NCBI RefSeq assembly: GCF_014696435.1 | Contig: NZ_JACJQG010000069.1 | Location: 1-55,262, forward strand | DNA from: Calothrix anomala FACHB-343 | Lineage (GTDB): Bacteria > Cyanobacteriota > Cyanobacteriia > Cyanobacteriales > Nostocaceae | Length of the DNA: 55,262 bases | Reading direction: 5' to 3' | Part shown: piece after piece, positions 20,103-54,761 of the stretch | Layout of the letters: the number at the start of each line of letters is the position of its first letter | Numbering within the stretch: the stretch's first letter is position 1 | Notes under the pieces: generated by a model | Told to the model about the DNA's origin: nothing | The model's database searches: none | What the model saw: the letters and a program-made list of their open reading frames with translations, nothing else | Position numbers and translations under genes: made by a program

Positions 20103-21554
20103 TTAAGGTAAAAATTCACCTTCTCTGAGTTTTGATATACTATTTTTAACAGCCTGAATAATATGATTAATGTCTTCATCTGTATGGGCTGTAGATAAAA
20201 ATCCTCCATTTCCTCTCAACATAACTCCCTGGTTAAGCAGATGATAATAAAGTAAATCATAAGCTAAGGAAATTTCTGAGTTTATCGCATCTTCTTCGCT
20301 ATTATCTCCTGAGTAAACCGGGCCAAAAATTGAACCGAAATTTGTCAGTTGAATAGGTAAATCTTCTTGATCAAAGTAATCATTCAGGGTTTTAACAAAT
20401 TTAGTTGTACGTTGATTTAACTCTGTTTGTAGAGTAGAACCTTTAGTTTTTAAATATTCTAAAACTGCTTTAGCTGCTGCTAAAGCTAGAGGATGTTTGC
20501 AGTAAGTTCCAGCAAAAAAAGTAGTGTTTTGGTGAGGCGATGATAAATCTCCATAATTCCACATTCCACCATCGATCGCATCCATAAAATTAGCTTTGCC
20601 TGCAATGATGCCGATCGCAATTCCGCCACCTACTATTTTACCATAGGCGGCAATATCTGCTTCAATGCCAAACCAAGCTTGCGCGCCACCTGGATGAATG
20701 CGAAAACCTGTCACCATTTCATCGAAAATTAATGCTATTCCCGATTTTTGGGTGATTTTTCTGAGTTGTTGCAGAAAGGCTTGGGGTTGTAGATCTAAAT
20801 TTTCTCTTTGAACTGGCTCAACTAACACCGCAGCTAATTCTTGCGCGTAATTGGCGATCGCGTCAAGTGATTCTGGTTCACCATATTTTAAAACTAAAAT
20901 ATCTGCAACAAAATTCGCTGGTATTCCTGATGCAATTGGTACAGTTTGTAAATTCTTATCTATAATTTTTCCTTTCCCTAGCGTACCATCAAAATGTCCG
21001 TGATAAGAGTGAGAAAATATAACAATTTTATTACGTCTTGTAACTGTTCTTGCCATCCTAATTGCTGTCATGATGGCTTCTGTACCTGTATTACTAAAAG
21101 CGACTCGCTCCATTTTTGTGAGTTCGCAAATCAGTTGAGCAACTTCACCAATAATTTCTGATTGGGAACCTAATTGTATACCTTTTTCTAGTTGTGCGGC
21201 TAATGCTTCTTTAATAAAATCTGGATTATGTCCGAACAGATTCACGCCATATCCCATGACTAAATCTATATATTCATTTCCATCCACATCCCATATTTTG
21301 CAGCCAGAAGAATTTTTAGTAACAATAGGGTAATAAATTTCTTTGAGCGGAAATTGGAAATCCACAAAGGTTTTATTATCGGCTAAAAATGGGCGATTAG
21401 CTTGGGCTAGTTGTTTTGATGTTTTGGTTTTCTGGTTATAGCGGATAATAAAATTCTCTAAATATTCTCGCTGACTTGTGGTTAAATTTACAGTGGATAA
21501 TATTTCACTGAGTTTTTGGGTATCTGTTGGAGAGCTTTCTTGGGCGATAAACAT
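20103..21554 (-). CDS. PLP class III aminotransferase, GSAM/AMT type
   Basis: About 483 residues from ATG 21554. A fold-type I class III aminotransferase related to glutamate-1-semialdehyde aminomutase and to AMT domains of PKS/NRPS systems: NTGTEAIMTAIRMAR, SHSYHGHFDG, ALIFDEMVTGFR, PLP lysine in AAYGKIVGGG, then TTFFAGTYCKHPLALAAA. A longer frame to 21653 would overlap the methyltransferase gene; 21554 (MFIAQESS) leaves a 26-bp gap and is preferred. As last gene of the NRPS operon, after a reductase-terminated synthetase, the attractive role is amination of the released peptide aldehyde, as MxcL does in myxochelin B synthesis (known precedent). This role is inference; an amino-precursor enzyme is the alternative. 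Confidence 0.82.
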   Translation of the reverse strand: MFIAQESSPTDTQKLSEILSTVNLTTSQREYLENFIIRYNQKTKTSKQLAQANRPFLADNKTFVDFQFPLKEIYYPIVTKNSSGCKIWDVDGNEYIDLVMGYGVNLFGHNPDFIKEALAAQLEKGIQLGSQSEIIGEVAQLICELTKMERVAFSNTGTEAIMTAIRMARTVTRRNKIVIFSHSYHGHFDGTLGKGKIIDKNLQTVPIASGIPANFVADILVLKYGEPESLDAIANYAQELAAVLVEPVQRENLDLQPQAFLQQLRKITQKSGIALIFDEMVTGFRIHPGGAQAWFGIEADIAAYGKIVGGGIAIGIIAGKANFMDAIDGGMWNYGDLSSPHQNTTFFAGTYCKHPLALAAAKAVLEYLKTKGSTLQTELNQRTTKFVKTLNDYFDQEDLPIQLTNFGSIFGPVYSGDNSEEDAINSEISLAYDLLYYHLLNQGVMLRGNGGFLSTAHTDEDINHIIQAVKNSISKLREGEFLP

Positions 21555-21580
21555 ATATTTTAGTTGATAAACGATCGCTT

Positions 21581-22327
21581 TTATTTGGTGCAGACAAAAT
21601 AGGCTACAATAGCATCTTCTGTTTTTGCGAGAATATCTTCTTTGTTGTAGCATTCTATTTGGGAGAATCCTACATTTTTGAGCGCAGATATTATTTGTGT
21701 TTGAAAATAGCCTTTAACTAACCAAGTAATATCATGACGTTGCCAATTTTGGTTAATTAATTCAAATATAGTAATATCGATTGTACCAATTTTTTCTTCT
21801 GAGTTATAGCTCCGCCTTAATGCCCAAGCATACTCATCTTGAATATCTCCAAGCATGGAGTTATTCCAATCAGATTGATAACGCCGATCTAGGCTTAAGT
21901 CGAACATGAATAAGCCATCGGGGAGGAGTGCTGTATATACGTTTTTAAATACTTTGGTTAATTCTTCGATGTTGATAATATGATTAAGTCCATAATCTGT
22001 GGAAACTACTCCATGAAAATTGGATGATAATTGAAAATCACGCACATCATTAAGGATAAACTGAGCATTGGGGGCGTTATTTTTGGCATATTCTATAAGT
22101 TTTTCAGAGCCATCAAGTCCAGTGACTTGATATCCTTTTTGGACTAGTTTCTGTGCTAAATGTCCTGCTCCACAGCACAGATCAAGAATTTGGGATGATT
22201 GGGGGAGATGGTTGAGTAGTAATTTTTCTATGTCAGGAAGTAGTGATTCACTAACTTCTGGGCCCCAAATTTCATTGATGATGCGTGCAAAGGAATTGTA
22301 AGCGGAATAATGAGTTGATGTAAGCAT
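21581..22327 (-). CDS. SAM-dependent class I methyltransferase
   Basis: A 248-residue stand-alone methyltransferase with the Rossmann SAM motif ILDLCCGAGHLAQKL (about 46-60), acidic post-II GLDGSEKLIEYAK, motif II region DVRDFQL, and post-motif FMFDLSLD. This UbiE/methyltransf_25-like type includes N-, O- and C-methyltransferases, and the target cannot be deduced. It lies in the NRPS operon between the terminating synthetase and the aminotransferase, so it most likely decorates the peptide, perhaps on a Dab/Orn nitrogen, the new terminal amine or a hydroxyl. It does not resemble FkbG-type O-methyltransferases, so it should not be taken as the missing methoxymalonyl enzyme. Confidence 0.85.
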   Translation of the reverse strand: MLTSTHYSAYNSFARIINEIWGPEVSESLLPDIEKLLLNHLPQSSQILDLCCGAGHLAQKLVQKGYQVTGLDGSEKLIEYAKNNAPNAQFILNDVRDFQLSSNFHGVVSTDYGLNHIINIEELTKVFKNVYTALLPDGLFMFDLSLDRRYQSDWNNSMLGDIQDEYAWALRRSYNSEEKIGTIDITIFELINQNWQRHDITWLVKGYFQTQIISALKNVGFSQIECYNKEDILAKTEDAIVAYFVCTK

Positions 22328-22340
22328 AAGTTTTGGGTTT

Positions 22341-22391: not shown

Positions 22392-25300
22392 TTAGCTATG
22401 GTTTGGGGGATTTTTTAAGAAACTATTATGAATTAGGTAGGAAAGGTAGGTATTTAACAGGTGTTGATTTAGTGGTGGACAAGTAATTGTCGTTTCTGCT
22501 AATCCAGTTAGGGTATTTTGCATGTCAATTTGCTGGATTGGGGAATCTTCTGTATTGGTGTTTTGAGATTCTTTATGAGTAAGTGTTGCAACTAGGGGAG
22601 ATAAGGGATTATTAGGTGATCGCTCAATTTCTTTTAATAGTTTGAAACGCCATTCTGGGTAGTCAATTGCTTGAAGTGGATAGCCAAAAGAGATGATTGA
22701 ATTTACTACTTCTTCCCAAGCTAAAGGTTGAGGGTTGATGATGTGAAAAACTTTGCCTAATGAGGTTGGTTGTTGTGATAAATAAATTATGGCTTGACTG
22801 GCGTAATCTACAGGGGTTAAGTTAACCATTGTGTCATCATTGGGGACGCTACCGAGTTGGATACAACCCCGAATCATTCTGAAGGTATGATCGTCGATAT
22901 TGCAAACACCTGTTTGACTATTTCCGGAAATTCTTCCAGGTCGATATATAGATATGGGAATTCCGCGATCGCCTGCAATTTGTACTAAGTTTTCTGCTAC
23001 CCATTTACTCTGTGTATAGCCACTACTGACATTTTTACCGTGATTGATGGGGGTATCTTCTCGAATTAGTTTTAAATTGGAATCAGCCGCATTAACAACG
23101 CCAATGGTAGAAATAAAATGTACTGGCTTGACTTTAATTTGTGCGGCTAATCTTAATATTTCTTGAGTTCCTAATACATTGGCGGCTTTGAGTTGAGAAT
23201 AAGGATAAGTGAAATTAACAAATGCACCATTATGATAAATGACATCAATTTTGGCGGCGATTTCTGCAAATTTATCGGCTGTCAGTCCTAACAGTGGTTG
23301 AGATAAATCTCCTATTAAGGGAATAATGCGTTGATGGCAGCTTTCATCCCATAATAAATAAGATTTTAAATGATTTTGTAGTCGTTGTGTAGCAATTTCA
23401 TTTGTTTGCGCTCGAATTAAACAATAGATATCGGCTGTGGTTTTCTGTAGGAGTTCGTAAAGTAAAAAAGCTCCCAAGAAACCTGTTGCACCTGTTAATA
23501 AAATCGCTGTAGGTGGGGTGGATTGGGGTATATATTTAGTCGCAGGAATAATTGCTGCATCTAAAACAACTTCAGAATCAAGATTAATATCTAAAGTAGC
23601 TATTTGTGTGTTGTTTATTTGCGCAGCTAAATCAGCAACAGTAGGTGCATCAAATAAAACTTTTAATGGTAATTCTACGCTAAATATTTTGCGGAGCTTT
23701 GCCAATAGTTGAGTGATGAGTAAGGAATGTCCGCCCAATTCAAAGAAATTATCGTGAATTCCTACTTGTTCTAATCCTAAAATTTCTGCCCAAATTTCCG
23801 CTAATTGTCTTTCTAAATCTGTACGTGGTGCCACATAAAGCTGTTCTAGTTCGGGACGAGTTTGTTCAGGATTTGGTAGTGCTTGATAGTCAATTTTACC
23901 GTTAGCTGTTAATGGTAATGCTTTGAGTAATATGAAACTAGAGGGTATGGCGTATTCGGGTAATTTATCTACACAAAAGTTGCGCAGAACAGTGGCGATC
24001 GCTTGATAATTTTGATGGATAAGGCGGAACTGGGGCGTAGTAACTATATATGCTACTAAACGTTTGTTGCTATTTGTGTCTTCTGTAGTTGTCACCACTA
24101 CTTCTTGCACGCCTGAATGTTGTTTGATGGTGGTTTCTATTTCCTCTAATTCAATGCGGAAACCTCTGATTTTGACTTGGCGATCGCTTCGTCCGAGAAA
24201 TTCTAAATTTCCATCATTTAAATAGCGTACTTTGTCACCTGTTTTATATAAAATTGCTTGAGAATCAGATGCAAAAGGATTTTGAATAAATCTGGCGGTT
24301 GTGAGTTCTGGTTGATTTAAATAACCTCTAGCTAATCCCGCACCACCGATATACAACTCACCCGGAACGCCTATAGGTACAAGTTGCAATTGTTCGTCTA
24401 AAACATAAACTAGAGTATTAGCTAAAGGTTTTCCTAAAGGAACAGTAGATGATAGTTGTTGTGTTTGTTGAGGAATTGAGTAAGTTAATGCTCCTACGGT
24501 TGTTTCTGTAGGGCCATAATGATTAAAAATCTGACATTCAGGTGATAATTTTTGAATCTGATTTATTAATTGCCAATTGCTAGCTTCACCACCTAAAATT
24601 AAACTTTTTCGAGGTATAATTAACGCAGTTTGAGCTACAGCCAAAAGCGCAGTTAGATGAGAGGGAACTATTTTCAGATAGTCTATCGGATGCTGCTGAA
24701 AATAATCCGCAAGTGCTTGAGCATCTGCTGCTGTTTCTTGGGGAATAATATGCAGACATCCACCTGTACATAATGAGGGAAAGATGACGGTATTACCTAA
24801 ATCTGCTGCGAAGGTGGAAACTGTAGCAAAGCTAGCATTTTTCGCTAAGTTTAATCTGTCGATGATTGCATAAATATAGTTAACAAGTTGACGATGTTCG
24901 ACTAAAACAGCTTTGGGGTTACCTGTAGAACCAGAAGTATAGATAGCATATACTAAATTTTCTGGCTTGGCTGTTGTTGTTAAATTGTCTGGATTGCTTT
25001 GGTTAATTAGTTCCCAGTCTGTATCCAGACAAATTATTTGTGTATTGTCTGCGGGAATTTTACTAATTAGCGATCGCTGTGTTAAAAGTACAGATACACC
25101 AGCATCTTGTAAGCGATAAGCTAAAGCTGCTGTTGGTAGTGCAGGATCTAGGGGTAGGTAAGCACCTCCAGCTTTGAGGATACCCAGGATTGCAACTATA
25201 TTATCAAGCGATGCCTTCGGCAACGTCTTCGACGAACGCTCTATATATAAACCTACCAATACCTCTGGCTTGACTCCTAACCCTCTTAAGTAAGATGCTA

Positions 25301-26786
25301 GGCGATTGGCGCGTAAATTTAACTCTGCATAAGTTAATTGTTGTTCTCCAAAGACAACCGCAATCTGATGAGGAGTTTGATTGACTTGTTCCTCAAATAG
25401 CTGATGAAAGCATTTATCTTGAGGATAGTTAGTCTGAGTATTATTAAATTCTACTAATAATTGATGACGTTCTTCACTATCAATAATTTCCAACTGTCCT
25501 ACAGACACATTTGGGTTAGTAATCACACTTGTAACTAAAGTGTGAAATTGTCTAGCTAAACGTTGAATAGTTTCGGCTGTAAATAGATGAGAGTTGTAAG
25601 CAAACTCTGTAATTAGAGAATCTTGCTGTTGAATGCAATTGAGTTTAAGTTTAAATCTTTCCCAGCAAACAAATTTTTGGTAAATAGAGAACTCTACACC
25701 ATCAGCATTGTATGTTTCTGGTGTTCCTTCCAATTCAAAACAAATCGGTAGACTTAGCCATTCCTGCTGACTACTTCTAATATCTGCTTCTAAAAAATAT
25801 TCCTGATACTGTTCCCCTTGGCGATGTTGTTCGCTAATATATGCTAAAACTTCTGCAAATTTAAATTCTGGAGTAAGCGGACAACTTAAAGGTAAAAATT
25901 TAGCTAATAATCCTAGAGTTTCATGTAGCTCTTCGTACTTTCTGCCATTATATAAATTATGTATAAGAATTTCTGATTGTTTGCTTAAACGCCAAATTAA
26001 TATATACCAACAAGTCAAGAAAAAATTATGATAATTTGTATTATTTAATATTACAAAATCAGCTATATTTCTGGTTAAATCTGTGGGTAAAGCAAGAGAG
26101 TAAATATCAGGCTGGAAATCTAGCTGATGATTATGACTTAATTCAAAATAAAGTTTTGCATATTCTATATTTTTAAATTCTTTTTCTTGCCAATAGTTTT
26201 TACCAATTTTGGCATCTTCTTCTGTTAAAAGCTCATTTTGCCATTCTGAAAATTGCAAATATTGTACAGGCTCATCTGTAAAATCTTTACCCTGTAAGCA
26301 AAGAGAATAACTAAGGCTAATTTCTTTCACCAGATTTTGCATTGTCCAACCATCCGCATATAAAGATGGCAAACTGATAATTAAAATATATCGATCATCA
26401 GCTAGAGATAATAACGAAAACCGCACCAAATCTGCTGTTTCTGATTGAGAAACTAAGCATCTTTCTTCTTCAATTAATTCTGCAATTTTAAGTTGTTGTT
26501 CCTGCTGCTTAAAATTCCGCAAGTTAATACAGCACCACGATACATTGCTTGATGCATTAATTACCTGAAGAGGAAACTTAATCCCTGGTCGGCGGTGAAA
26601 ACTTGTCCGTAAAATTTCATGACGATTAACAACTTTGTGCGTAGCTGCTTGCAAAACTTCTATATCAACTATTCCTGTCAACAAAATAGCAACTTGAGAC
26701 ACATAAATCTGGCTATCTTGTTGTAATAACCACAGACGCTTTTGTTGGGGAGAAAGTTGAAAACCTTCTAATATTTCACTTTTCAT
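22392..26786 (-). CDS. NRPS: C-like(no His)-A(Asp)-PCP-thioester reductase
   Basis: A 1464-residue terminal module. Residues 1-430 are a C-like domain whose HHxxxDG slot reads PSLYADG (140-146), with both His lost. The A domain (about 455-960) has pocket residues D-L-T-K-I-G-H-V-G (FAADLGNT, YLKIVPSHL, LILGGE, NHYGPTETTVG), nearly the known Asp code DLTKVGHIG. PCP has LGGHSLL (about 1015). The C-terminal Lys2-type reductase (about 1085-1440) has NADPH motif LTGATGFLG and the Y-x3-K pair in SGYTQSKW. It should load Asp and release the peptide as aldehyde or alcohol. The His-less C-like domain resembles the interface domain that recruits Asp beta-hydroxylases; the partner would be the TauD domain of the preceding synthetase. 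An 8-residue repeat-derived insertion lies near residues 519-526. Confidence 0.92.
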   Translation of the reverse strand: MKSEILEGFQLSPQQKRLWLLQQDSQIYVSQVAILLTGIVDIEVLQAATHKVVNRHEILRTSFHRRPGIKFPLQVINASSNVSWCCINLRNFKQQEQQLKIAELIEEERCLVSQSETADLVRFSLLSLADDRYILIISLPSLYADGWTMQNLVKEISLSYSLCLQGKDFTDEPVQYLQFSEWQNELLTEEDAKIGKNYWQEKEFKNIEYAKLYFELSHNHQLDFQPDIYSLALPTDLTRNIADFVILNNTNYHNFFLTCWYILIWRLSKQSEILIHNLYNGRKYEELHETLGLLAKFLPLSCPLTPEFKFAEVLAYISEQHRQGEQYQEYFLEADIRSSQQEWLSLPICFELEGTPETYNADGVEFSIYQKFVCWERFKLKLNCIQQQDSLITEFAYNSHLFTAETIQRLARQFHTLVTSVITNPNVSVGQLEIIDSEERHQLLVEFNNTQTNYPQDKCFHQLFEEQVNQTPHQIAVVFGEQQLTYAELNLRANRLASYLRGLGVKPEVLVGLYIERSSKTLPKASLDNIVAILGILKAGGAYLPLDPALPTAALAYRLQDAGVSVLLTQRSLISKIPADNTQIICLDTDWELINQSNPDNLTTTAKPENLVYAIYTSGSTGNPKAVLVEHRQLVNYIYAIIDRLNLAKNASFATVSTFAADLGNTVIFPSLCTGGCLHIIPQETAADAQALADYFQQHPIDYLKIVPSHLTALLAVAQTALIIPRKSLILGGEASNWQLINQIQKLSPECQIFNHYGPTETTVGALTYSIPQQTQQLSSTVPLGKPLANTLVYVLDEQLQLVPIGVPGELYIGGAGLARGYLNQPELTTARFIQNPFASDSQAILYKTGDKVRYLNDGNLEFLGRSDRQVKIRGFRIELEEIETTIKQHSGVQEVVVTTTEDTNSNKRLVAYIVTTPQFRLIHQNYQAIATVLRNFCVDKLPEYAIPSSFILLKALPLTANGKIDYQALPNPEQTRPELEQLYVAPRTDLERQLAEIWAEILGLEQVGIHDNFFELGGHSLLITQLLAKLRKIFSVELPLKVLFDAPTVADLAAQINNTQIATLDINLDSEVVLDAAIIPATKYIPQSTPPTAILLTGATGFLGAFLLYELLQKTTADIYCLIRAQTNEIATQRLQNHLKSYLLWDESCHQRIIPLIGDLSQPLLGLTADKFAEIAAKIDVIYHNGAFVNFTYPYSQLKAANVLGTQEILRLAAQIKVKPVHFISTIGVVNAADSNLKLIREDTPINHGKNVSSGYTQSKWVAENLVQIAGDRGIPISIYRPGRISGNSQTGVCNIDDHTFRMIRGCIQLGSVPNDDTMVNLTPVDYASQAIIYLSQQPTSLGKVFHIINPQPLAWEEVVNSIISFGYPLQAIDYPEWRFKLLKEIERSPNNPLSPLVATLTHKESQNTNTEDSPIQQIDMQNTLTGLAETTITCPPLNQHLLNTYLSYLIHNSFLKNPPNHS
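25209..25232. repeat. 24-bp in-frame insertion in an NRPS A domain
   Basis: Other A domains here read ERSLDMI or similar; this one reads ERS-SKTLPKAS-LDNIVAILG, eight extra residues encoded by GC-rich DNA (CCTTCGGCAACGTCTTCGAC) in an AT-rich gene. The wider segment AGCG...CGCT (25207-25240) has small inverted arms and resembles short dispersed repeats. The frame is kept. Confidence 0.75.
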
Positions 26787-35957: not shown

Positions 35958-35995
35958 ATTAACAACACCCCTTTTATCACAATCAATAATCAAAA

Positions 35996-36045
35996 ACTCT
36001 GCGCACCTCCGCGCTTCCCTCCGCGCCACTTTGCGTTTAAAACTC
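35996..36045. repeat. Dispersed CGCGGAGG/CGCAAAG repeat in operon gap
   Basis: CTCTGCGCACCTCCGCGC and TCCGCGCCACTTTGCGTTTA are a copy of the family also found at 17.17, 22.34 and 52.37 kb. It lies in the leader of the Asp-module gene and creates a false N-terminal extension of its reading frame. Confidence 0.7.
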
Positions 36046-43081: not shown

Positions 43082-44473
43082 TTAAACAAAATCGAAATTT
43101 AATGACATTTGGTTTTTGAGTATGACTAATTCAGGATGGAGTGTTTGCTCTGTTAAAGACAATAATTCCTGAATAGTTAAATTCAGATTATCCGCCATAT
43201 TTTCGAGTAATATTTTCAGATGCTCCAGGATATTTACAATAGTTGCTGCCGCAAAAAGCTGGAAGTCGTAATTAATGCCAATTGTCAGTTCTGAACCAGG
43301 ATATCCAACTATCGTTAAAGGATAATTAGTTTTGTAAAAAGAATTATGTTCAGAAATATTTAAACTTCCCCATTCTTCCAAAAATCTGCCTGTTTTTTGG
43401 TTTTCAAATACAACAAAGCTAGCAAATAATGGCAGATTTCCTCTTACTTGACTACACTTTTGCACATCTACCAAGGGGTAGTATTCATATTCCCGAATTT
43501 CTACTAATTGAGTTTGTAATTCTTGCAGCCAAGGTAATAAATCATCATCCATATTTACCTTGATGTTTACTGGTAAGGTATTCACCATTTCTCCTACCAT
43601 TAACTCTGCTCCTGGTAAATCTACTGGGCGACCGGAAAAAGTACAGCCATAGATAACATTATTTTTGCCACTATAGTGACATAGAAGTATCGCCCAAGCT
43701 CCTTGAACAAGGGTATTTATAGTTAAGTGATGTTGTCTTGCTAATGTTTCTAAATTTTTTGTAGTTGCTGCCGATAAGCTAATTTGTATATCCTCGTAGC
43801 GTTCTTCTAAATTAGATAATTTCTGGGAATAAAGATTAGCTAAAGAAGTAGGCTCTGTGACTTCTCTAAGTTGCTGTCGCCAAAATTCTGCTGCTTGAGA
43901 TAAATCCTGTTGTTGTAACCAATTAATATAGTCTCCAAAGCAACTACCAGAAATTAAAGGCGCATCTTGATTTTGGGAATATGCTTCATAAATTTCAATA
44001 ACATCCTTTAATAAAAAGGGAATAGACCAGCCATCAAGAATAATCAAATGCCAAACGCAGACAAAGTAGTAAACTTTATCTTCTACTTGAAACAAAGCTA
44101 GGCGGATTAGAGGCGCTTGGGAAAAATCAAAACCCCGCAGGCGATCGCTCTTGAGAAAAAACTTTAATTTTGCTTGCTGTGCATCTGGCGCAATTTCCCG
44201 CCAATCTTGGTATTCTATAGGGACTTCGACTTGGTCATGTACAACTTGTAATGGTTTTTCTAATTCTTCCCAATAGAAACTAGTGCGTAATACTGTATGT
44301 AGGGCTGATAATTGTTGCCAAGCACGTTCAAAAGCAGAACGATTGAGATTGCCTTTAAAAGTGTAGATGTCCTGCATGTGGTAAAGTCCCAGTTCAGGGG
44401 CGTGCAGAGCATGAAACAAAATACCATGCTGTATGGGAGATAGTGGGTATATATCTTGAATGTCTTCTCTCAT
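43082..44473 (-). CDS. Free-standing condensation domain, catalytic His replaced
   Basis: A 463-residue protein that is one complete condensation domain (IQDIYPLSPIQHGILFHALHAP at 5-26 through the C-terminal lobe to about 440). The opening is of the type that normally follows an LGGDS carrier, and the upstream NRPS ends with LGGDSI. The active-site motif reads HLIILDG (142-148): the second, catalytic His is Leu143 (codon TTG). It could be a structural or acceptor-gating domain, or act together with the half-C of the module two genes on; this is inference. It overlaps the upstream NRPS gene by 4 bp and precedes the EctB-type gene by 36 bp. Confidence 0.88.
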   Translation of the reverse strand: MREDIQDIYPLSPIQHGILFHALHAPELGLYHMQDIYTFKGNLNRSAFERAWQQLSALHTVLRTSFYWEELEKPLQVVHDQVEVPIEYQDWREIAPDAQQAKLKFFLKSDRLRGFDFSQAPLIRLALFQVEDKVYYFVCVWHLIILDGWSIPFLLKDVIEIYEAYSQNQDAPLISGSCFGDYINWLQQQDLSQAAEFWRQQLREVTEPTSLANLYSQKLSNLEERYEDIQISLSAATTKNLETLARQHHLTINTLVQGAWAILLCHYSGKNNVIYGCTFSGRPVDLPGAELMVGEMVNTLPVNIKVNMDDDLLPWLQELQTQLVEIREYEYYPLVDVQKCSQVRGNLPLFASFVVFENQKTGRFLEEWGSLNISEHNSFYKTNYPLTIVGYPGSELTIGINYDFQLFAAATIVNILEHLKILLENMADNLNLTIQELLSLTEQTLHPELVILKNQMSLNFDFV

Positions 44474-47400: not shown

Positions 47401-50400
47401 TATTTGTGCTTCTTCTGTCGTTTGTTTTTTAACTTCTAATTCTTGTTGATTGGCAGGTAAATTACTAATATCTAATATGGGCAATTGTACTACATCTGGT
47501 GGTAAGATAACCGCCACAGGTTGCCCTTCTATAGTTTGAAAATTAGTGCGTAAGGCTTCGTGACGGCGTAAAATTTCTTGAAAAGTTTGTTGTAAGGCTT
47601 TGATATTCAGGTTTCCCTGTAAACGCACAGCACTGGGCATATTATAAGCAGAACTGTGCATTTCTAACTGAGCCAAAAACCAGAATCGCTGTTGCGCAAA
47701 GGATAAGGGTAAATGAGGCGATCGCGCAATTCGTGTAATCTTTATTTCTTCAACCTGCGAGTTAGTTTTAGTGGCTTTTTCAATATCTTTAGCTAACCCG
47801 GCTATTGTGGGTTTTTCAAATATTCGCCGTAAAGGAAGTTCTATTTGAAAAGTTTGTCTTATTTGGGAAATCAAACGAGTTGCAAGTAAAGAATGTCCTC
47901 CTAAATTAAAGAAATTATGGTGAATGCCTATATTGTCAATTCCTAATATTTCTGTCCAGATATTGACAAGCTGCTTTTCAATTGCTGTCGAAGGTGCAAT
48001 AAAATCTGATGGGGATGATAATTGTGTGATTTTTGGTGCTGGTAATGCCCGCCGATCTAACTTACCATTAGGTGTGATTGGTAATGCTTCTAATGCCACA
48101 AAAGCAGCAGGTATCATATATTCAGGGAGTTTTTGCTCAAGAAATTCCCGTAAGTCTATGGCTAATTGCTCCTGAGAATGTTGTACAAAATATGCAACCA
48201 AGCGGCGATCGCCGGGAATATCTTCTCTAGCAATAACCACAGCTTCACCCACATTTGGATGTTGCTTAATAACTGCTTCAATTTCTCCTAATTCAATGCG
48301 GAAACCACGAATTTTGACTTGATTATCTATACGTCCAAGAAATTCAATATTACCATCACTTAACCATCTACCTAAATCACCAGTTTTATAAATAAAATCT
48401 GTATTAGTTCCTGGTAAAGGTTTTGCAGTAGAAATAAAGGGATTAGGAATAAAGCTTAAATTAGTCTTGTGTTCGTTCTTCCAATAGCCTAAACCAACGC
48501 CAAATCCAGAAACACAAATTTCCCCAGGTACACCAATTGGAACTAATTGCATTTGTGAATCGAGAATATACAGATTGAGATTTGCTAAAGGTTTACCAAT
48601 GGGAACTGTCAGAGAATTTTCTGGTAAAGGCTGGTCAATAATCATTTGGGTAATATCATCAGCAGCTTCGGTAGGGCCGTAAGCATTAACAACTTTGATG
48701 TCTGGGTAAAGTTGCAACCATCGATTTACGAGTGGAACTGATGCAGATTCTCCTGTTACCATCATCCATTGAAGATTTGGTAATAATCTTTGCTCTGGGG
48801 ATAAATTAGCAACATAATCTAGTAAAGCGGTGAGAACGACCGGGACTAATTCAACAATAGTAATATTGTGTTTTTGAATAACTTGAAATAATTCGCTAGG
48901 GCTACAAACTGTGTCTGTATCAACTATGATAGTTTTGCCACCAATCAAAATAGGTGCTAAAAATTGCCATACAGAAATGTCTGAAGAAGCAGGCGCACTT
49001 TGGATAAAAGTTAATGATTCTGTTAATTTTAGAGCGTCAAATTGAGCATAAATATGATTAATTGCGCCACCATGCCTAATAATTGCTCCTTTGGGAGACC
49101 CAGTTGAGCCGGATGTATAAATCATATAAGCTGGAGCAACACCAGTATGATTTGTTGTTAAGTTTTCTGTTGCTAGGTGAGCAAAATTCAACTGGTTATA
49201 TATTTTGATACTTTTGGTTTGTGCAAGTAATTTTTGGTCAGCTTTACTGTCTAAAAATATTAAATGCTTTAATTGCGGACAATCTATAAATAAATGAGTA
49301 TCTTGCCAGCTAGAATCTGTTAACAAAAATCTAACTTCACTGTTAGATACCATGTATCTAATTCTCGATTCTGGGTAAGTGCTATCAATGGGAACATAGA
49401 CTCCACCTGCTTTGAAAATAGCCAGTATAGCGATGAGAAAGTTAATATCCCGTTGTTTGACAATAGCGATGAATTCTCCCTGTTGAACTCCTAAATTTTG
49501 GAGAAATCTGGCTAGTTGGTTGGCTTTAATATTTAGCTCTTGATAGGTTAATTGACTGTCTGCAAATACTACTGCTATTTTTTCTGGTGTTTTTATTACC
49601 TGTTTTTCAAATAATTCATGAATGCATTTATCAACAGGATAGGCAACTTCTGTATTATTCCACTGTTGTAATAACTGCTGCTGTTCAGATGCTGTTAGCA
49701 GGGGTAATGAGGCAATTTTCTGCTGTGGAGTAGCAATAATTCCTGCTAGCAAAGTCTGAAAATGTTCGGTTATACGGTTAATAGTATCTGCATTAAATAA
49801 ATCACTACTATATTCAAATTTACCTATAATTTCTTCTTGCTGTTCTACCATATCTAGGCTTAAATCAAACTGAGCCGTTGCACTTTCTGTACCTGATATA
49901 GTTAAAGTTAGTTCTCCTATTTCCAAAGCTGGCATAGGGCTATTATTAAGGGAAAACCAAACTTGAAAAAGCGGGTTATGGCTAAGATTGCGTTCTGGTT
50001 GAATTTCTTCTACTAACTGTTCAAAAGGTAAATCTTGGTGGGTATAAGCATCTAATGTTGTCTGTTTAACTCTTGCTAATAAATCGAGAAAACTCGGATT
50101 ACCACTGACATCAGTTCGCAACACTAAAGTATTGACAAAAAAACCGATTAACTTTTCAATTTGGGGAAGATTACGATTAGCGATCGCAGTCCCAATAATA
50201 ATATCCTCTTGTTGACTGTAGCGATAAAGTAGAATTTTAAAAGCAGTCAGCAATGTCATAAATAAAGTAGCGCCTGCTTGCTGACTCAGTGCTTTGATTG
50301 CGGTGGTTAAAGATTTAGGAATAGTGAAAGTATGGGTTTTCCCTTTATAAGATTGTACCGCCGGGCGAGGATAATCTTGTGGGAGTTGTAAGACTGGTAA

Positions 50401-51153
50401 AGAGCCGCCTAATTGTTGTTTCCAGTAATTTTTTTGAGATGTTAGTGCTTCTCCTTGTAAGTATTCTTTTTGCCAAATAGCAAAGTCTCCATACTGAATT
50501 GGTAGTTCAGCTAAGGATGAAGTTTTATCTTCACAAAAAGCTGGATATAGCGCTAATAATTCATGTATTAATACACCTATTGACCAACCATCAGAAACAA
50601 TATGATGCATGGTAAATAATAATATATGCTCTGTTGGATTTAGCTGTATTAACTTGGCTCTTAATAACAAATCATCGTTGAGATCAAATGGTTGATTTGC
50701 TTCTTGTGATGCTAGTTTTTGGATTTCTGCTGATTGTTGATTTATCGCTAGTTCGCTAATATCAATTAATGTAATAAATAATGTTTTTGAAGAATGAATA
50801 AATGCTACAGGTTTATCTTCAATAGTTTGAAAATTACAGCGCAAAACTTCATGGCGGTTGATAATTTCTTGCAAACTATCTTGCAAAGCCTGATAGTTTA
50901 GTTTTCCTTGGAGACGAACTACAGCAGATATATTATAAAATGGGTTGTCTGGCTCTAATTGTGCCAAAAACCATAGCCGTTGTTGAGAGAAAGATAAAGG
51001 AACAGGATTATGTTGAGAACGACGGGGAATAAATTTTTCTGGTTTATCTAGTTTAAGTTCACCTCGCAAGCGTTTTTCTAAAAGTGCTTGTTTTGCTGGT
51101 GATAGTTGAGAACGTCTCAGAGAAATTTCATTTTTTTTGTTATTCATAGTCAT
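44470..51153 (-). CDS. NRPS: C-A(Dab?)-PCP-C-A(Gly)-PCP
   Basis: A 2227-residue two-module synthetase. The N-terminal helical segment (SPAKQALLEKRLRGEL) is followed by C1 (about 48-480, HHIVSDG 183-189), A1 (about 505-1000) with pocket D-I-W-E-M-T-A-D-D (probably Dab), PCP1 LGGHSLL, C2 (about 1110-1545, HHIASDA), A2 (about 1565-2075) with pocket D-I-L-Q-L-G-M-I-W, a near match to the glycine code DILQLGLIW, and PCP2 LGGDSIV. A1 is a close paralogue of the A domain of the 961-residue module. C1 shows that an upstream donor is expected, so this is not the first unit of the assembly line. The start at 51153 (MTMNNK) is 44 bp from the fkbH-like gene. Confidence 0.93.
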   Translation of the reverse strand: MTMNNKKNEISLRRSQLSPAKQALLEKRLRGELKLDKPEKFIPRRSQHNPVPLSFSQQRLWFLAQLEPDNPFYNISAVVRLQGKLNYQALQDSLQEIINRHEVLRCNFQTIEDKPVAFIHSSKTLFITLIDISELAINQQSAEIQKLASQEANQPFDLNDDLLLRAKLIQLNPTEHILLFTMHHIVSDGWSIGVLIHELLALYPAFCEDKTSSLAELPIQYGDFAIWQKEYLQGEALTSQKNYWKQQLGGSLPVLQLPQDYPRPAVQSYKGKTHTFTIPKSLTTAIKALSQQAGATLFMTLLTAFKILLYRYSQQEDIIIGTAIANRNLPQIEKLIGFFVNTLVLRTDVSGNPSFLDLLARVKQTTLDAYTHQDLPFEQLVEEIQPERNLSHNPLFQVWFSLNNSPMPALEIGELTLTISGTESATAQFDLSLDMVEQQEEIIGKFEYSSDLFNADTINRITEHFQTLLAGIIATPQQKIASLPLLTASEQQQLLQQWNNTEVAYPVDKCIHELFEKQVIKTPEKIAVVFADSQLTYQELNIKANQLARFLQNLGVQQGEFIAIVKQRDINFLIAILAIFKAGGVYVPIDSTYPESRIRYMVSNSEVRFLLTDSSWQDTHLFIDCPQLKHLIFLDSKADQKLLAQTKSIKIYNQLNFAHLATENLTTNHTGVAPAYMIYTSGSTGSPKGAIIRHGGAINHIYAQFDALKLTESLTFIQSAPASSDISVWQFLAPILIGGKTIIVDTDTVCSPSELFQVIQKHNITIVELVPVVLTALLDYVANLSPEQRLLPNLQWMMVTGESASVPLVNRWLQLYPDIKVVNAYGPTEAADDITQMIIDQPLPENSLTVPIGKPLANLNLYILDSQMQLVPIGVPGEICVSGFGVGLGYWKNEHKTNLSFIPNPFISTAKPLPGTNTDFIYKTGDLGRWLSDGNIEFLGRIDNQVKIRGFRIELGEIEAVIKQHPNVGEAVVIAREDIPGDRRLVAYFVQHSQEQLAIDLREFLEQKLPEYMIPAAFVALEALPITPNGKLDRRALPAPKITQLSSPSDFIAPSTAIEKQLVNIWTEILGIDNIGIHHNFFNLGGHSLLATRLISQIRQTFQIELPLRRIFEKPTIAGLAKDIEKATKTNSQVEEIKITRIARSPHLPLSFAQQRFWFLAQLEMHSSAYNMPSAVRLQGNLNIKALQQTFQEILRRHEALRTNFQTIEGQPVAVILPPDVVQLPILDISNLPANQQELEVKKQTTEEAQIPFDLNNGCLLRVKLLRLSEQEHILLLTMHHIASDAWSTDILLREFVTLYQAFCQAQPAPLAELPIQYVDFADWQRQWLQGERLESQISYWRQQLKGVPELLELPTDFPRPPIQSFQGATYSFKLPQQLSVGLNQLSQQQGTTLFMTLLAAFQTLLYRYTGSEDLAIGSPIANRDRIELEGLIGLFINTLVLRTNLAGNPSFIELLKRVREVALGAYAHQDLPFELLVEELQPQRNLSHTPLFQVMFVLQNASMSALELPGLTLNYLPVDSGTAKFDLTLDMTETIEGLVANFEYNSDLFQASTIKRMAGHFQTLLEGIIANPQQRLSQLPLLTASEKHQLLQPSHNTEITYPVDEFIHELFAQQVEKTPDAVAVVYENQQLTYQELNAKANQLAHYLRSLGVKPEVLVGICIERSLEMVIGLLAILKAGGAYIPLDPNYPQQRLEYILEDTQASVLLTQASLLELLPQHQGQIVCLDSDWHLIAQQSQNSLSSELTTENLAYIIYTSGSTGKPKGVQIPHMALSNFLYSMKQAPGLTSQDKLLAVTTYSFDIAALEIFLPLIVGACLIVASQEIIADGIQLLAKIKASKATVMQATPATWQLLLAAGWDENLQLKILCGGEALSAPLASQLLQRCSSLWNMYGPTETTIWSAASQIKTVNKTVTISSPIANTQLYILDQYNQLVPDGVPGELCIGGAGLARGYFNRPDLTVEKFIPHPFSDRASARLYKTGDLARYLPNREIEYLGRIDNQVKIRGFRIELGEIEAVISQYSGVRETVVTVREDSASQRLVAYIVPTKELTPNISELRNFLETKLPNYMIPAAFVTLEALPLTPNGKVDRKALPAPDIAKLGVNQELVKPRNFVETKLTEIFTEVLGVDRVGIFDNFFELGGDSIVAIVVITKANQAGIKLTVKQLFQHQTVANLASVAVTQNVIQAEQKVTNKDTSAHFSKANLNQTELDRFLAKVKRTSKNQKI

Positions 51154-51197: not shown

Positions 51198-52265
51198 TTA
51201 ATTCGCCTGAAATTTAATATATGCAGGTACAGGCTGAATCCGGGTTAAATCATTTTCCAGTAATATCACAGCATCATTACTAGCAACTTCTTTAAAGCCA
51301 GCAAATTTATAAGATATATACATCATGCGATTGCGATTATTAGATACAAATTCTGCTAGGAGGCGGACATTATTGTTTTTAGCTAAACTCATGACATAAT
51401 TCAACATCACTGTTCCCACACCTCTTGACATCACGCGACAAGACATGAGTAAAAGCTTGATTTTCCAAATATCCGCTTGACATTCAATTAATACTAAACC
51501 GATTTTTCCGTAGCTTCCATATTTATCTTCTAAAGTTGCAATTAACAATTTATGGTTTTTGGAATTACGAAAATTATTGAGTTCATCATAGGAATATGTA
51601 TAACCAGTTGTATTTAATTGGTTAGTGCGTAAGGTTAATTCTTCTGCGCGTTGTAAATCTTCTTCTTGTGCCAAGGATATAGTAAAATTCATGTTGAGCG
51701 TAGCCAAGAATTCTTCGGCTGTGCCGATAAAATCTTTCTCAGCATTTTGACGTTCAATATCACTAATATACATTAATCTTCTCATGGCAGAATCTTCCGT
51801 CAAAAACCGGGGATTCATCACAGCCATATCGAGAATATTAGCAATTTTATCAGCATTAATACAAATAATTTCTGGTACAGAAAACTTGACTTCTTCGAGT
51901 TCAAATAATTGATCATCAACAAAGGCGATCGCATCGAGTCCAATATTCAATGATTTGGCAATTTCTTTGATAGAAGCCGCCTTAGAATTCCAGTTAATTT
52001 GGGGATATAAAAAATAATCTTTCAGTCCAAAATCTGCCAATTTAGCTATAGCTGTTGCATAATCATTCTTACTAGCAACAGATTGTAAAATTCCCCGCTT
52101 GTCTAAAGTTTGAATAATATTTACTATATCTCTTCGTAAAGCAACTTTTTCATCTTCTAATAAAACCCCGTGCCATAAAGTATTATCTAAATCCCAAACA
52201 ACACATTTAATAACTTTTTTATCTTCTTGTTGACTATTCAAATTTGTTTCTTGAGTACTAATCAT
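51198..52265 (-). CDS. FkbH-like HAD-family glyceryl transferase/phosphatase
   Basis: 355 residues, the family's usual length. N-terminal HAD phosphatase (about 15-170) with DxDxT nucleophile motif VVWDLDNTLWHG, then SVASKND and FVDDQLFELEEVK; C-terminal GNAT-like half (about 190-345, GSYGKIGLVLIE, MSRGVGTVMLNYVM, NRNRMMY). FkbH-type enzymes take 1,3-bisphosphoglycerate, dephosphorylate it and load glyceryl onto an ACP (known). With the three upstream genes it forms the core of the methoxymalonyl/hydroxymalonyl-ACP pathway. No FkbG-type O-methyltransferase is beside it, so hydroxymalonyl-ACP, or glyceryl-ACP used directly, is the likely product. Confidence 0.9.
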   Translation of the reverse strand: MISTQETNLNSQQEDKKVIKCVVWDLDNTLWHGVLLEDEKVALRRDIVNIIQTLDKRGILQSVASKNDYATAIAKLADFGLKDYFLYPQINWNSKAASIKEIAKSLNIGLDAIAFVDDQLFELEEVKFSVPEIICINADKIANILDMAVMNPRFLTEDSAMRRLMYISDIERQNAEKDFIGTAEEFLATLNMNFTISLAQEEDLQRAEELTLRTNQLNTTGYTYSYDELNNFRNSKNHKLLIATLEDKYGSYGKIGLVLIECQADIWKIKLLLMSCRVMSRGVGTVMLNYVMSLAKNNNVRLLAEFVSNNRNRMMYISYKFAGFKEVASNDAVILLENDLTRIQPVPAYIKFQAN

Positions 52266-52454: not shown

Positions 52455-53639
52455 CTAAACCCTCCTTATTAATTTACCTTCCCAATCACTAGAAACGCTG
52501 GAAATAAAATAATCTTGATATCCTGATTCAGCAATGGTAATTTCTTGAATTTGAGTGCTACCTTCAATAATTTCCATAACTTTGGCATCCCGTAAATACC
52601 GTTCCACAGGATACTCACTACTACAACCATTTCCGCCATGAATTTGCACAGCATCATTAGCTATTTTAGTTGCTGCGGTAGATGCAAAATACTTAGCAAT
52701 AGAAGTTTCTATAATCGAGTTAGGATGGTTAATATCTTTGAGATAACCGGCTTGATAACATAACAATCTTGCAGCTTTGATGTTAGCTATCATCTGAGTT
52801 ATCTTTTGGCGAATTAATTGATGTTCTTTGAGGTAGACATCAAATTGTTTGCGATCGCTAGTATATTGAATGCAAGCTTCTAAACAAGCTTGAGCAATAC
52901 CTACACAACCACAGGCTACACTATATCTACCATAATCAAGGGCAGAAGCAGCAATGTAAGCAAAGCCAAAACCTAATTTACCGACTAAATTTTCTGCTGC
53001 TACCTCACAGTTATTCAACTGCAATTCTGCTAGCATTGATGCTCTAGTACCTAAAATACCAGACATCGGTTTTATCAAAAGACCTGGATTATTTTTTTTG
53101 ACTAAAAAAGCAGTTGGTTTACCGTCACATTTAGCAAATACCAAAAATACATCTGCTATTTGTCCATAGGTAATCCATTTTTTTCTTCCATTTAAAATAT
53201 AAGCATTACCTGTAAATGTTGCTGTTGTTTCTACACTTTTAGCATCGCTACCTACATTCGGTTCGCTTAATGCAAAAGCACCTATAATTTCTCCCAATGC
53301 TAGTTTAGGGAGCCAATAATCTTTTTGAGATTTACTTCCCCATTTGCATAAAGCCTGAGAAACCATATTATGAACTGTTAGCAAACTCCGTATAGAAGAA
53401 CATCCCCGGCCAATTTCTTCGTTGAGAATACCGTAACTAATCATGTCCATTCCTTCACCGCCATATTCTTGTGGTAATACAGCGCCAAGAAAACCACGTT
53501 GAGCAATTTTTTTGATTAGTTCAGGGGGAGTAAATTCTTTTCTATCCCATTCACCAGCTTCAGGAAATATTTCCTCATTTACCAAAGCTCTAATTTCAGC
53601 TTGATAACTTTTTTGTTGCGGAGTTAGTTCTAGTTTCAT
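52455..53639 (-). CDS. Acyl-CoA dehydrogenase-like, FkbI type
   Basis: A 394-residue flavoprotein of the acyl-CoA dehydrogenase family: N-terminal helical domain, FALSEPNVGSDAKS and KKWITYGQIADVFLVFAK (FAD and substrate region, about 125-170), DYGRYSVACGCVGIAQACLEACIQY, DRKQFDVYLKEHQLIRQKI, QIHGGNG, and the catalytic-base region VMEIIEGSTQIQEI. In the FkbI/AsmL role it oxidises ACP-bound intermediates (known pathway), together with the 3-hydroxyacyl-CoA dehydrogenase-like protein. It overlaps the ACP gene by 4 bp, as expected for an enzyme acting on that ACP. The family alone would allow other acyl substrates; context decides. Confidence 0.9.
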   Translation of the reverse strand: MKLELTPQQKSYQAEIRALVNEEIFPEAGEWDRKEFTPPELIKKIAQRGFLGAVLPQEYGGEGMDMISYGILNEEIGRGCSSIRSLLTVHNMVSQALCKWGSKSQKDYWLPKLALGEIIGAFALSEPNVGSDAKSVETTATFTGNAYILNGRKKWITYGQIADVFLVFAKCDGKPTAFLVKKNNPGLLIKPMSGILGTRASMLAELQLNNCEVAAENLVGKLGFGFAYIAASALDYGRYSVACGCVGIAQACLEACIQYTSDRKQFDVYLKEHQLIRQKITQMIANIKAARLLCYQAGYLKDINHPNSIIETSIAKYFASTAATKIANDAVQIHGGNGCSSEYPVERYLRDAKVMEIIEGSTQIQEITIAESGYQDYFISSVSSDWEGKLIRRV

Positions 53640-53884
53640 AAGACTATTTTTGCTGTTTTTCGCTCAACTAAATTAGCGAGAGAATTAATAGTACGAAAAT
53701 TATCAAATTCCAAGTCTTCGTTTTCTATATTAATTTGAAATTCTTGCTCTATAAATAAAACAAGCTGCATCGCAAACATGGAATTAACAAAGCCTAGCGT
53801 AAAAATATCTTCGTCAACTTGCAAGTCATGATTACCAAAAAATCTTGAAAGAAATGCTTTAATTTGAGTTTGTATTTTATTCAT
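53636..53884 (-). CDS. Dedicated acyl carrier protein, FkbJ type
   Basis: An 82-residue discrete carrier protein. The phosphopantetheine Ser is Ser35 in GFVNSMFAMQLVLFIEQEF, a variant typical of FkbJ-like ACPs rather than fatty-acid ACP (DSLD). The remaining helices (EDLEFDNFRTINSLANLVERK) are normal for the fold. It should carry the glycerate-derived unit while the neighbouring dehydrogenases and the FkbH-like enzyme act on it. The gene overlaps the acyl-CoA dehydrogenase gene by 4 bp and follows the dehydrogenase gene after 22 bp. Confidence 0.88.
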   Translation of the reverse strand: MNKIQTQIKAFLSRFFGNHDLQVDEDIFTLGFVNSMFAMQLVLFIEQEFQINIENEDLEFDNFRTINSLANLVERKTAKIVL

Positions 53885-53906
53885 TTTGCTGATTGCTTCC
53901 TATTTA

Positions 53907-54761
53907 CTATTGATATACATAAAAGCCTTTACCATTTTTTCTTCCATATAGTCCAGCATCTACCATTTTTTTGAGTAAAGGACATGGTCTATATTTACTA
54001 TCGTTAAAGTTTTCATACAAAACTTCAATAGAAAATAAAATTGTGTCTAAGCCTATTAAATCTGCTGTTTCTAAAGGCCCCATTTTATGACCAAAACAGC
54101 CTTTAAAGATTTTATCTATATCTGCTGCTGTTGCAACTTGGTCTTGTAATAAGAAAACAGCTTCGTTAATAGTTAACATTAATACGCGATTAGAAACAAA
54201 ACCGGGTGAATCATTAACAATTACCCATTCTTTACCCATCTGAGCTAGCATTTTTTGGGCTATCTCAATTGTGGTTTCTGAAGTATGGTAGCCGCGAATC
54301 ATCTCTACCATTGGCTTCATGGGTACGGGGTTCATGAAGTGAATACCAAGCACTTTATCGGCACGTTTCGTAGCCGAAGCAATGCGGGTAATGGGAATTG
54401 CGGAGGTATTAGCAGCAAATACACAATCTGCTGGGCAGATGGCATCTATTAAGGAATATACTTGTTTTTTATTATCCCATTTTTCGGTGACATTTTCTAT
54501 AACAAAGTCAGCATTTTCTAAAAGTTTATAGTCGGTTGAAAATTCTATTCTGTTAATAACTTCTTCTAGATTAATTGTTTTGTCTGTTTTTTGAAATAAA
54601 GACTGGAAGCGAATATTGTTTTTAATTTCTTGTTGGGCTTTATCGAGAATTTCTGCTTTAATATCTACCAAAATTACATCATGGCCTGTTTGCGCAAGAT
54701 TTTGGGCGACTCCTATACCCATGACACCTGCACCAACCACACCGACAGTTTGAATTTTCAT
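53907..54761 (-). CDS. 3-hydroxyacyl-CoA dehydrogenase-like, FkbK type
   Basis: A 284-residue NAD(P)-dependent dehydrogenase resembling 3-hydroxybutyryl-CoA dehydrogenase. Nucleotide motif VGVVGAGVMGIGVA (7-20), acidic end of beta2 VDIKAEI, catalytic LGIHFMNPVPMKPMVEMIRG with His, SPGFVSNRVLM, and C-terminal GPLETADLIGLDT...GRKNGKGFYVY. In the FkbK role it oxidises ACP-bound glycerate at C3 (known pathway). It is the first complete gene of the operon visible here. Upstream, a 28-nt hairpin repeat (54817-54844) and the truncated carrier domain intervene; no clear Fur-type box was found. Confidence 0.88.
   Translation of the reverse strand: MKIQTVGVVGAGVMGIGVAQNLAQTGHDVILVDIKAEILDKAQQEIKNNIRFQSLFQKTDKTINLEEVINRIEFSTDYKLLENADFVIENVTEKWDNKKQVYSLIDAICPADCVFAANTSAIPITRIASATKRADKVLGIHFMNPVPMKPMVEMIRGYHTSETTIEIAQKMLAQMGKEWVIVNDSPGFVSNRVLMLTINEAVFLLQDQVATAADIDKIFKGCFGHKMGPLETADLIGLDTILFSIEVLYENFNDSKYRPCPLLKKMVDAGLYGRKNGKGFYVYQ

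Follow-up and report, generated by a model that had tools for sequence, protein, structure and literature searches.

The 55,262-base contig NZ_JACJQG010000069.1 of the cyanobacterium Calothrix anomala FACHB-343 (hereafter the window; one whole contig, G000:C111, of a 9.24 Mb genome in 144 contigs) quite probably carries most of a biosynthetic operon for a lipopeptide siderophore resembling the cyanochelins, the product and its iron binding both being predictions. From position 20103 to the right contig end all biosynthetic genes lie on the minus strand (Table 1). In the biosynthetic direction they run FkbK, a discrete acyl carrier protein (ACP), FkbI, FkbH, the nonribosomal peptide synthetase (NRPS) NRPS1, a stand-alone condensation (C) domain, EctB, NRPS2 and a TubC_N-C protein, followed by TauD, NRPS3 (C'-A-T), NRPS4 (C-A-T-C-TauD), NRPS5 (C'-A-T-reductase), a methyltransferase and a class III aminotransferase, where A and T are adenylation and thiolation domains and C' is a C-like domain of the interface type. 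The 12 minus-strand genes in 20103-52265 account for the six A domains, two TauD domains, EctB, thioester reductase, aminotransferase and methyltransferase. A preliminary description of this DNA had named these parts within positions 20103 to 54761, and all of them were recovered there by Pfam and NCBIfam profile matches; three features of the same region had gone unnamed, namely the Fkb set at 51198-54761, a half C domain at 40968-41732, and the loss of HHxxxDG histidines in three C-type domains.

A TauD domain and a C' domain precede each of the two A domains with the aspartate (Asp) pocket DLTKIGHVG, and both TauD domains keep the HNE and AHGR motifs, which upholds the earlier proposal of two β-hydroxyaspartate (β-OH-Asp) modules. 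In the C' domains of NRPS3 and NRPS5 the HHxxxDG motif is replaced by SLSALIADD or SLPSLYADG, and both histidines are missing at the aligned motif site in 19 of 19 C' domains (two each in the seven clusters compared below, in Leptolyngbya sp. NIES-3755 and in Leptolyngbya boryana, and one in G107:C184). A loose pattern had picked up IHNLYDG in one Aliterella interface domain; alignment places SLPSLRADS at the motif site. The idea of an interface domain, a C-like fold that lacks the HHxxxDG histidines and lies between the hydroxylase and the Asp-specific A domain, reportedly goes back to Reitz and colleagues, and the C' domains fit that definition in sequence; a search of the open-access library for the term returned no paper. 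The first hydroxylated position in the clusters of Nostoc FACHB-152 and Nostoc XA010 (L182-L187) has the pocket DSALIAEVW, which we take to resemble the histidine code, and these clusters could possibly make mixed β-hydroxyhistidine/β-OH-Asp siderophores with the same Fkb cassette. The fused and the stand-alone TauD of the window are 65% and 55% identical to the NIES-3755 enzymes, and the available part of one paper recognises cyanobacterial Asp hydroxylases as a class with the two clades CyanoBH_Asp1 and CyanoBH_Asp2 (PMC12971057).

The window holds only the 3' part of an assembly line, and the operon runs past the contig end. An intact colinear homologue is found on one contig of the same-genus Calothrix brevissima NIES-22 (AP018207.1), with 95-97% DNA identity to the window operon across most of its length. 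There, 5' of fkbK, lie genes for a TonB receptor, a further gene, DUF1636, an MFS transporter, a fatty-acid ligase (FAAL) protein and the polyketide synthases (PKS) PKS1 and PKS2. The FAAL protein is built as FAAL-ACP-C-A(DVWHISLID)-T, with a pocket that we assume to be of the serine type; PKS1 has the order ketosynthase (KS), acyltransferase (AT), ketoreductase (KR), ACP, and PKS2 the order KS-AT-methyltransferase-ACP without KR. In the genome of the window the upstream genes (TonB receptor, periplasmic binding protein, DUF1636, MFS, FAAL, PKS) are on a second contig, C7, where the counterpart of the further gene of NIES-22 passes Peripla_BP_2 (73.0 bits, cut-off 27.5). The FAAL protein of C7 (8956-15240, L027) has an FkbM-type methyltransferase domain within its serine-type A domain that was not found in the NIES-22 protein, and the C7 PKS1 has diverged from that of NIES-22 (68% protein identity). 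The free peptide beginning with diaminobutyrate (Dab) that had been proposed must therefore be given up in favor of the 3' part of a fatty-acid-ligase/NRPS/PKS/PKS/NRPS line, as seen in NIES-22 and C7, and since a FAAL and two PKS genes stand upstream in NIES-22, a lipopeptide is expected.

Six clusters were laid out with that of the window: NIES-22, Nostoc FACHB-152, Nostoc XA010, Aliterella atlantica CENA595, Gloeocapsa UFS-A4-WI-NPMV-4B04 and Cyanosarcina radialis HA8281-LM2, with two loci of the same start (L057, L058) left out. All seven follow a common plan of KS-AT(GHSIGE)-KR, KS-AT(GYSIGE)-methyltransferase in which no KR was found, then the Fkb genes, an NRPS middle that varies, and finally TauD, C'-A, C-A-C-TauD, C'-A(Asp)-reductase and aminotransferase, an agreement that is description and no independent test, the six strains having been picked for parts of the plan already visible; a methyltransferase gene is near the cluster end in five. 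Together they form a testable group of cyanobacterial clusters that pair a hydroxymalonyl-ACP cassette with a cyanochelin-like line.

By its parts and their order, the cluster probably belongs beside the cyanochelins. It has in common with the characterized cyanochelin B cluster (ccs, Leptolyngbya sp. NIES-3755 plasmid 2) the FAAL start, a PKS with methyltransferase, the terminal reductase, and two Asp hydroxylases, one fused and one stand-alone, each of which precedes an interface-type C domain and a DLTKIGHVG A domain. The two Asp pockets of the window are identical to both Asp pockets of that cluster, which bears out the kinship suggested in the preliminary description. Two β-OH-Asp modules, each with a dedicated TauD, are present in the window, and the upstream FAAL and PKS genes with the adjoining TonB receptor are present in NIES-22 and on C7, outside it. 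Unlike the window cluster, the PKS of cyanochelin B has a luciferase-like monooxygenase domain, which we take to supply the α-oxygen of that compound, and the FkbH cassette, EctB, half C domain and aminotransferase were not found in the stretches of the cyanochelin B cluster that were read. The product, as given in the available part of its description, holds two β-OH-Asp, a thiazoline, Phe, Gly, Ser and ethanolamine (PMC12628792). The plasmid pLBX of L. boryana shares the order TauD, interface-A-T, C-A-T-C-TauD, interface-A-T and also has a TonB receptor; it differs in an annotated thioesterase II and acylase, and no FkbH, reductase or aminotransferase turned up in the stretch read. The 2021 cyanochelin paper is said to have listed some two dozen more cyanochelin-like clusters, and the present group may be among them. 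Our search of the open-access literature gave no report of an Fkb cassette in a β-OH-Asp siderophore cluster, and no system matching Dab combined with hydroxyaspartate, or FkbH or hydroxymalonyl combined with a siderophore; FkbH, Dab and hydroxyaspartate are absent from the available part of the lusichelin paper and from the fatuamide paper by text search.

Gene content, domain order, pockets, motifs and conservation were read directly; the nine positions of each pocket come from a MAFFT alignment of the A domains anchored on the motifs of the window itself. In biosynthetic order the pockets are DIWEMTADD, DILQLGMIW, DIWEMSADD, DLTKIGHVG, DVGEVGSID and DLTKIGHVG. Five are as first described, and the fifth, formerly read as DVGELVSID and assigned to ornithine (Orn) or Dab, had been misread with a shift; the aligned code is presumably that of Orn. 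By the usual specificity codes the residues would be Dab, Gly, Dab, Asp, Orn and Asp, an assignment supported by EctB in the operon and, for Asp, by the same pockets in the cyanochelin B cluster. The first pocket of NRPS1 varies among relatives, being DVGEVGSID in NIES-22, Tolypothrix FACHB-123 and Nostoc XA010 (L056, L058, L060), DVGDVGSID in Aliterella, DILQLGMIW in FACHB-152 and unreadable in L057; among the closest loci a Dab-type domain is found here in the window only, and the more distant L085 has DIWELTADD. An A core of about 1.05 kb (window 48420-49480, minus strand) cannot be aligned between the window and NIES-22, with flanks 93-97% identical, and the Dab-type first A domain of the window is probably the derived state. 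No recent donor was found: the best match outside the window in 99 genomes (E 1e-150) is 77% identical, and the core is 75% identical to NRPS2 of the same operon. The sister strains display a natural exchange of the first NRPS A domain from Orn type to Dab type.

The substrates, order of tailoring, product and iron binding that we infer are as follows. The upstream ligase would activate a fatty acid, which would be joined to a serine-type residue and extended by two PKS modules. FkbH, the ACP, FkbI and FkbK would make hydroxymalonyl-ACP, to be taken by PKS2, whose methyltransferase probably methylates the same carbon to give an α-hydroxy, perhaps α-hydroxy-α-methyl, β-keto unit. The NRPSs would then add Dab, Gly, Dab, β-OH-Asp, Orn and β-OH-Asp, each carrier-bound Asp being hydroxylated by a TauD enzyme that is held in place by an interface domain, C-like but without catalytic histidines. 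The reductase would free the chain as an aldehyde, the aminotransferase would convert this to an amine, and the methyltransferase may methylate it. Fe(III) would be bound by the two β-OH-Asp units and possibly also by the α-hydroxy polyketide unit.

As to release, the NRPS5 reductase passes TIGR01746 (377.6 bits, cut-off 213.35) and has the motifs GYTQSK and GATGFLG of short-chain dehydrogenases/reductases, and with an aminotransferase gene downstream the earlier expectation of reductive release with a possible amine end is sustained. The small methyltransferase probably acts on the released end. The best NCBIfam model for this terminal NRPS is MxcG, at 696.3 bits far under its cut-off of 2300. 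Myxochelin is a catechol siderophore without hydroxyaspartate, released by the MxcG reductase and the MxcL aminotransferase; both systems combine a class III aminotransferase with an NRPS that ends in a reductase, and they differ in that the aminotransferase of the window is closest in the PDB to the AMT domain of mycosubtilin synthase (474.8 and 474.4 bits; next a glutamate-semialdehyde aminomutase, 208.8). Identity with HemL, the glutamate-1-semialdehyde aminomutase, was rejected (TIGR00713 289.9 bits, cut-off 527.3). On balance we expect the product to end in an amine. The AMT domain of mycosubtilin acts on a β-ketoacyl carrier, and a serious possibility, if the less expected one, is that the aminotransferase works in trans on PKS2, turning the β-keto group into a β-amine, and that the reductase leaves an aldehyde or alcohol end. 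Besides the relationship to the AMT chains, the absence of KR from PKS2 and the presence of the aminotransferase in all seven laid-out clusters, which were chosen with this in view, speak for such a role. In the same seven clusters, the reductase gene is followed by that of the aminotransferase, either at once or with the methyltransferase between them, which favors the released end. Among 15 genomes searched the aminotransferase is 64-95% identical in the six relatives laid out above, at most 60% identical in six others and was not found in three, and the six relatives laid out are also those that have a methyltransferase-bearing PKS without visible KR before FkbK. The order reductase-methyltransferase-aminotransferase recurs in another NRPS cluster of Nostoc favosum and Nostoc mirabile (L197-L203; G111:C191, G110:C231); on these two contigs a KR is present in the single PKS that is visible, which counts against action on a β-keto group, with the reservation that the clusters may extend further. 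Cyanochelin B, with a reductase and no aminotransferase, is reported with an alcohol end in the available part of its description (PMC12628792), in keeping with the in-trans role.

The gene set for hydroxymalonyl-ACP is complete, with FkbH, a discrete ACP, FkbI and FkbK together. The FkbG-K genes of FK506/FK520 form a methoxymalonyl-ACP pathway, with which the window shares grouped homologues of FkbH, FkbI, FkbJ and FkbK and from which it differs in having no FkbG-type O-methyltransferase; the genes from FkbK to NRPS1 are ACP, FkbI and FkbH only, so that hydroxymalonyl rather than methoxymalonyl is expected. Scanning genome contigs with FkbH turned up 190 related stretches, and the 80 best of them (57 cyanobacterial, 23 other, each at most 21 kb) were considered. 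In many cyanobacteria the FkbK-ACP-FkbI-FkbH set has NRPS and PKS genes around it, and a TauD match (E 1e-30) occurs in at least 13 of the 80. Were the Fkb set to make hydroxymalonyl-ACP, one of the ATs would be expected to depart from the malonyl type. The AT of PKS2 reads GYSIGE vs GHSIGE in PKS1, and with AT domains called by sequence pattern, a GYS AT is found in 43 of the 47 cyanobacterial FkbH loci that have an AT in view. In five same-genus genomes, two with and three without FkbH, GYS marks 2 of 30 AT loci (30 of 36 AT matches), both of them PKS2. As a correlation this is good, and GYSxGE may serve in cyanobacteria as a sequence mark for an AT that probably takes the rare hydroxymalonyl unit. 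In cyanochelin B a carbon bearing oxygen and methyl adjoins the thiazoline, according to the available part of its description (PMC12628792), and by analogy we propose that PKS2 yields a 2-hydroxy-2-methyl unit. The hydroxymalonyl cassette sits where cyanochelin B has its monooxygenase domain, and the two may be alternative routes to one kind of iron ligand. That the FkbH set instead loads another unit such as glyceryl, as the available part of the work on suomilide biosynthesis proposes for an FkbH-like domain loading glycerate, or that the unit is O-methylated to methoxymalonyl by the methyltransferase domain of PKS2, we consider unlikely; glycerate loading needs neither the oxidizing pair FkbI and FkbK nor the discrete ACP, which are present here and stay grouped in most FkbH loci of cyanobacteria, and the methoxymalonyl option has no methyltransferase gene in the cassette.

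The second Dab module has an unusual architecture. EctB passes TIGR02407, so the supply of Dab by an EctB-type gene stands as first proposed. NRPS2 opens with a half C domain consisting of the C-terminal lobe, and half C domains precede Dab-type A domains in L063, L071, L072, L079, L081, L087 and L094 (40-60% identity). At least six of 242 genomes of the class have one, that of the window included (E 1e-40; candidates only partly scored in many genomes), and in the five others it starts 12-21 residues past the preceding stop, ahead of an A domain with DIWE..ADD motifs. The idea of an assembly accident was set aside, the half C opening the protein in NIES-22 and other genera as well. Its predicted structure (mean pLDDT 70.5; residues 1-35 and 143-163 below 50) resembles C domains in fold, the best Foldseek matches being C domains from NRPSs of solved structure (TM 0.5-0.64 of the query, large rmsd). 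A stand-alone C domain lies upstream of the half C in all loci with enough DNA in view, and EctB lies between the two in most, L079, L087 and L094 being exceptions. In the stand-alone C of the window (43082-44473) Leu replaces the second His of HHxxxDG, and the motif of active C domains is not matched. The same replacement is found in L056, L058, L081, L087, L091 and L094; in L063, L071, L072, L076 and L079 the first His is Asn and the second is kept; L212 and L052 read RHFxIADG. The notion of an invariably inactive stand-alone C was discarded, HHxxxDG being kept in three of five further loci (L213-L215). Locus L052, on plasmid pn1 of Nostoc sp. UHCC 0926, has C-EctB-half C together with two Asp-type pockets and a GYSIGE acyltransferase. 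Our reading is that the separate C domain would condense in trans and the half C would remain as a platform carrying the A domain. A bolder version, in which the Dab module represents a novel type of NRPS module whose stand-alone C (in the window group lacking its catalytic His) and half C form a composite site that, beyond simple peptide bond formation, closes Gly-Dab to an ectoine-like cyclic amidine (tetrahydropyrimidine), and in which hydroxymalonyl plus C-methylation builds a third, tertiary α-hydroxy iron ligand, is speculative and improbable; to our knowledge that route to a tertiary α-hydroxy ligand is not described for siderophores. A literature search for a half C Dab module or truncated C domains found no matching system in open-access papers, and a conserved half C domain linked to Dab-type modules is of interest in itself.

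In the genome of the window itself PKS2 looks broken by an insertion near 55155. With the NIES-22 PKS2 as query, C7 matches to base 3963 and the window from base 3956 on, an overlap of 8 bases. The element at the window end also ends at C7:1-106, giving a target duplication of 7-8 nt in the PKS2 gene, and the inverted sequences at the two contig ends are alike at 24 of 27 positions. It looks as if an insertion sequence with target duplication had cut the carrier domain off PKS2; a transposase was not seen at the C7 and window contig ends, because both contigs stop inside the element. The split of PKS2 probably leaves the copy of this strain silent, intact copies being present in relatives, and the strain is a poor choice for culturing the product.

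Several points weigh against a cyanochelin-like siderophore. The probably non-working copy argues against production in Calothrix anomala FACHB-343 itself, and we know of no product. The Dab and Orn readings come from specificity codes for which a literature search gave nothing. The methyltransferase domain of PKS2 shares only 35% identity with its cyanochelin B counterpart and might be an O-methyltransferase instead, and the likeness of the aminotransferase to mycosubtilin AMT may mean that PKS2 rather than an aldehyde is its target. GYS is lacking in four of the 47 cyanobacterial FkbH loci where an AT is visible (L069, L075, L086, L101), and outside cyanobacteria it is found in one of five such loci (23 loci), so that the mark, if it is one, would be confined to cyanobacteria. 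Loss of the catalytic His from the stand-alone C of the window group leaves bond formation there unexplained. A Fur-box scan of seven gaps gave nothing convincing as a sign of regulation, the site between PKS2 and FkbK being reached by 2 of 200 shuffles and the other six by 11-99.5%. The want of a convincing Fur box would also suit a peptide with some other role, such as a protease inhibitor, a signal or an antimicrobial lipopeptide, and fatty acyl, Dab and Orn residues occur in membrane-active lipopeptides too. Such a role is very improbable given the genes for a TonB receptor, Peripla_BP_2, DUF1636 and an MFS exporter directly upstream on C7, in the same gene order in NIES-22, which also agree with the siderophore-type NRPS of the preliminary description; β-OH-Asp is moreover treated as a mark of metallophores in the available parts of two papers (PMC12628792, PMC12971057). 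A remnant decaying everywhere and making nothing, which one might suspect in the window from the PKS2 insertion, the half C and the loss of a catalytic His from one C domain, is barely credible, as the long frames are open and PKS2 is whole in NIES-22, and the half C and remaining parts are conserved across genera.

Table 1. Features of the operon and its surroundings (window positions unless a contig is named).
Feature	Position	Strand	Remarks
Class III aminotransferase	20103..21653	-	PF00202; start probably 21554, as in NIES-22
SAM methyltransferase	21581..22327	-	Methyltransf_25; between reductase and aminotransferase in window, NIES-22, FACHB-152, XA010
NRPS5: interface-type C without HHxxxDG-A(DLTKIGHVG, Asp)-T-thioester reductase	22392..26786	-	GYTQSK and GATGFLG motifs
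NRPS4: C-A(DVGEVGSID, Orn type)-T-C-TauD (fused β-hydroxylase)	27040..32760	-	
NRPS3: interface-type C without HHxxxDG-A(DLTKIGHVG, Asp)-T	32757..36029	-	
Stand-alone TauD/SyrP-type Asp β-hydroxylase	36068..37114	-	PF02668; nearest solved chain At3g21360; HNE and AHGR
TubC_N docking domain and C domain with HHIVSDA	37210..38850	-	Pfam
NRPS2: half C-A(DIWEMSADD, Dab type)-T	38847..41732	-	Pfam, pocket alignment
Half C domain (C-terminal lobe only), start of NRPS2 protein	40968..41732	-	Condensation 186-455/456
EctB, diaminobutyrate-2-oxoglutarate transaminase	41789..43045	-	TIGR02407 581.0 bits, cut-off 552.2
Stand-alone full-length C domain, degenerate WHLIILDG	43082..44473	-	Pfam Condensation 2-450/456
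NRPS1: C-A(DIWEMTADD, Dab type)-T-C-A(DILQLGMIW, Gly type)-T	44470..51153	-	
FkbH (predicted first step to hydroxymalonyl-ACP)	51198..52265	-	TIGR01686 274.4 bits, cut-off 146.65
FkbI-type acyl-CoA dehydrogenase	52455..53639	-	Acyl-CoA_dh domains
FkbJ-type discrete acyl carrier protein, 82 aa	53636..53884	-	Similar ACP in same place in many of 80 FkbH loci
FkbK-type 3-hydroxyacyl-CoA dehydrogenase	53907..54761	-	3HCDH_N and 3HCDH; beside ACP-FkbI-FkbH in relatives
PKS2 3' remnant (carrier domain), severed from rest	54862..55159	-	96% DNA match to NIES-22 PKS2 3' end
End of insertion-sequence-like element	55156..55262	.	Identical 107 bases at C1:1-107
TonB receptor gene	L021:16787-19426 (NIES-22); C7:18999-21638 (window genome)		

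The operon has a GC content of 34-41% in 2-kb steps, and the left flank 42-45% in nine of ten such steps; a search across the window found no tRNA. Runs of a seven-base unit (AATTTTG/CAAAATT) stand in both orientations near gene ends, at 1129-1164, 2964-3188, 27025-27084 and 37153-37212. A tandem pair of 123-nt units, 89% alike, occupies 135-380 of the window, and a portion of it recurs at 7747-7783.

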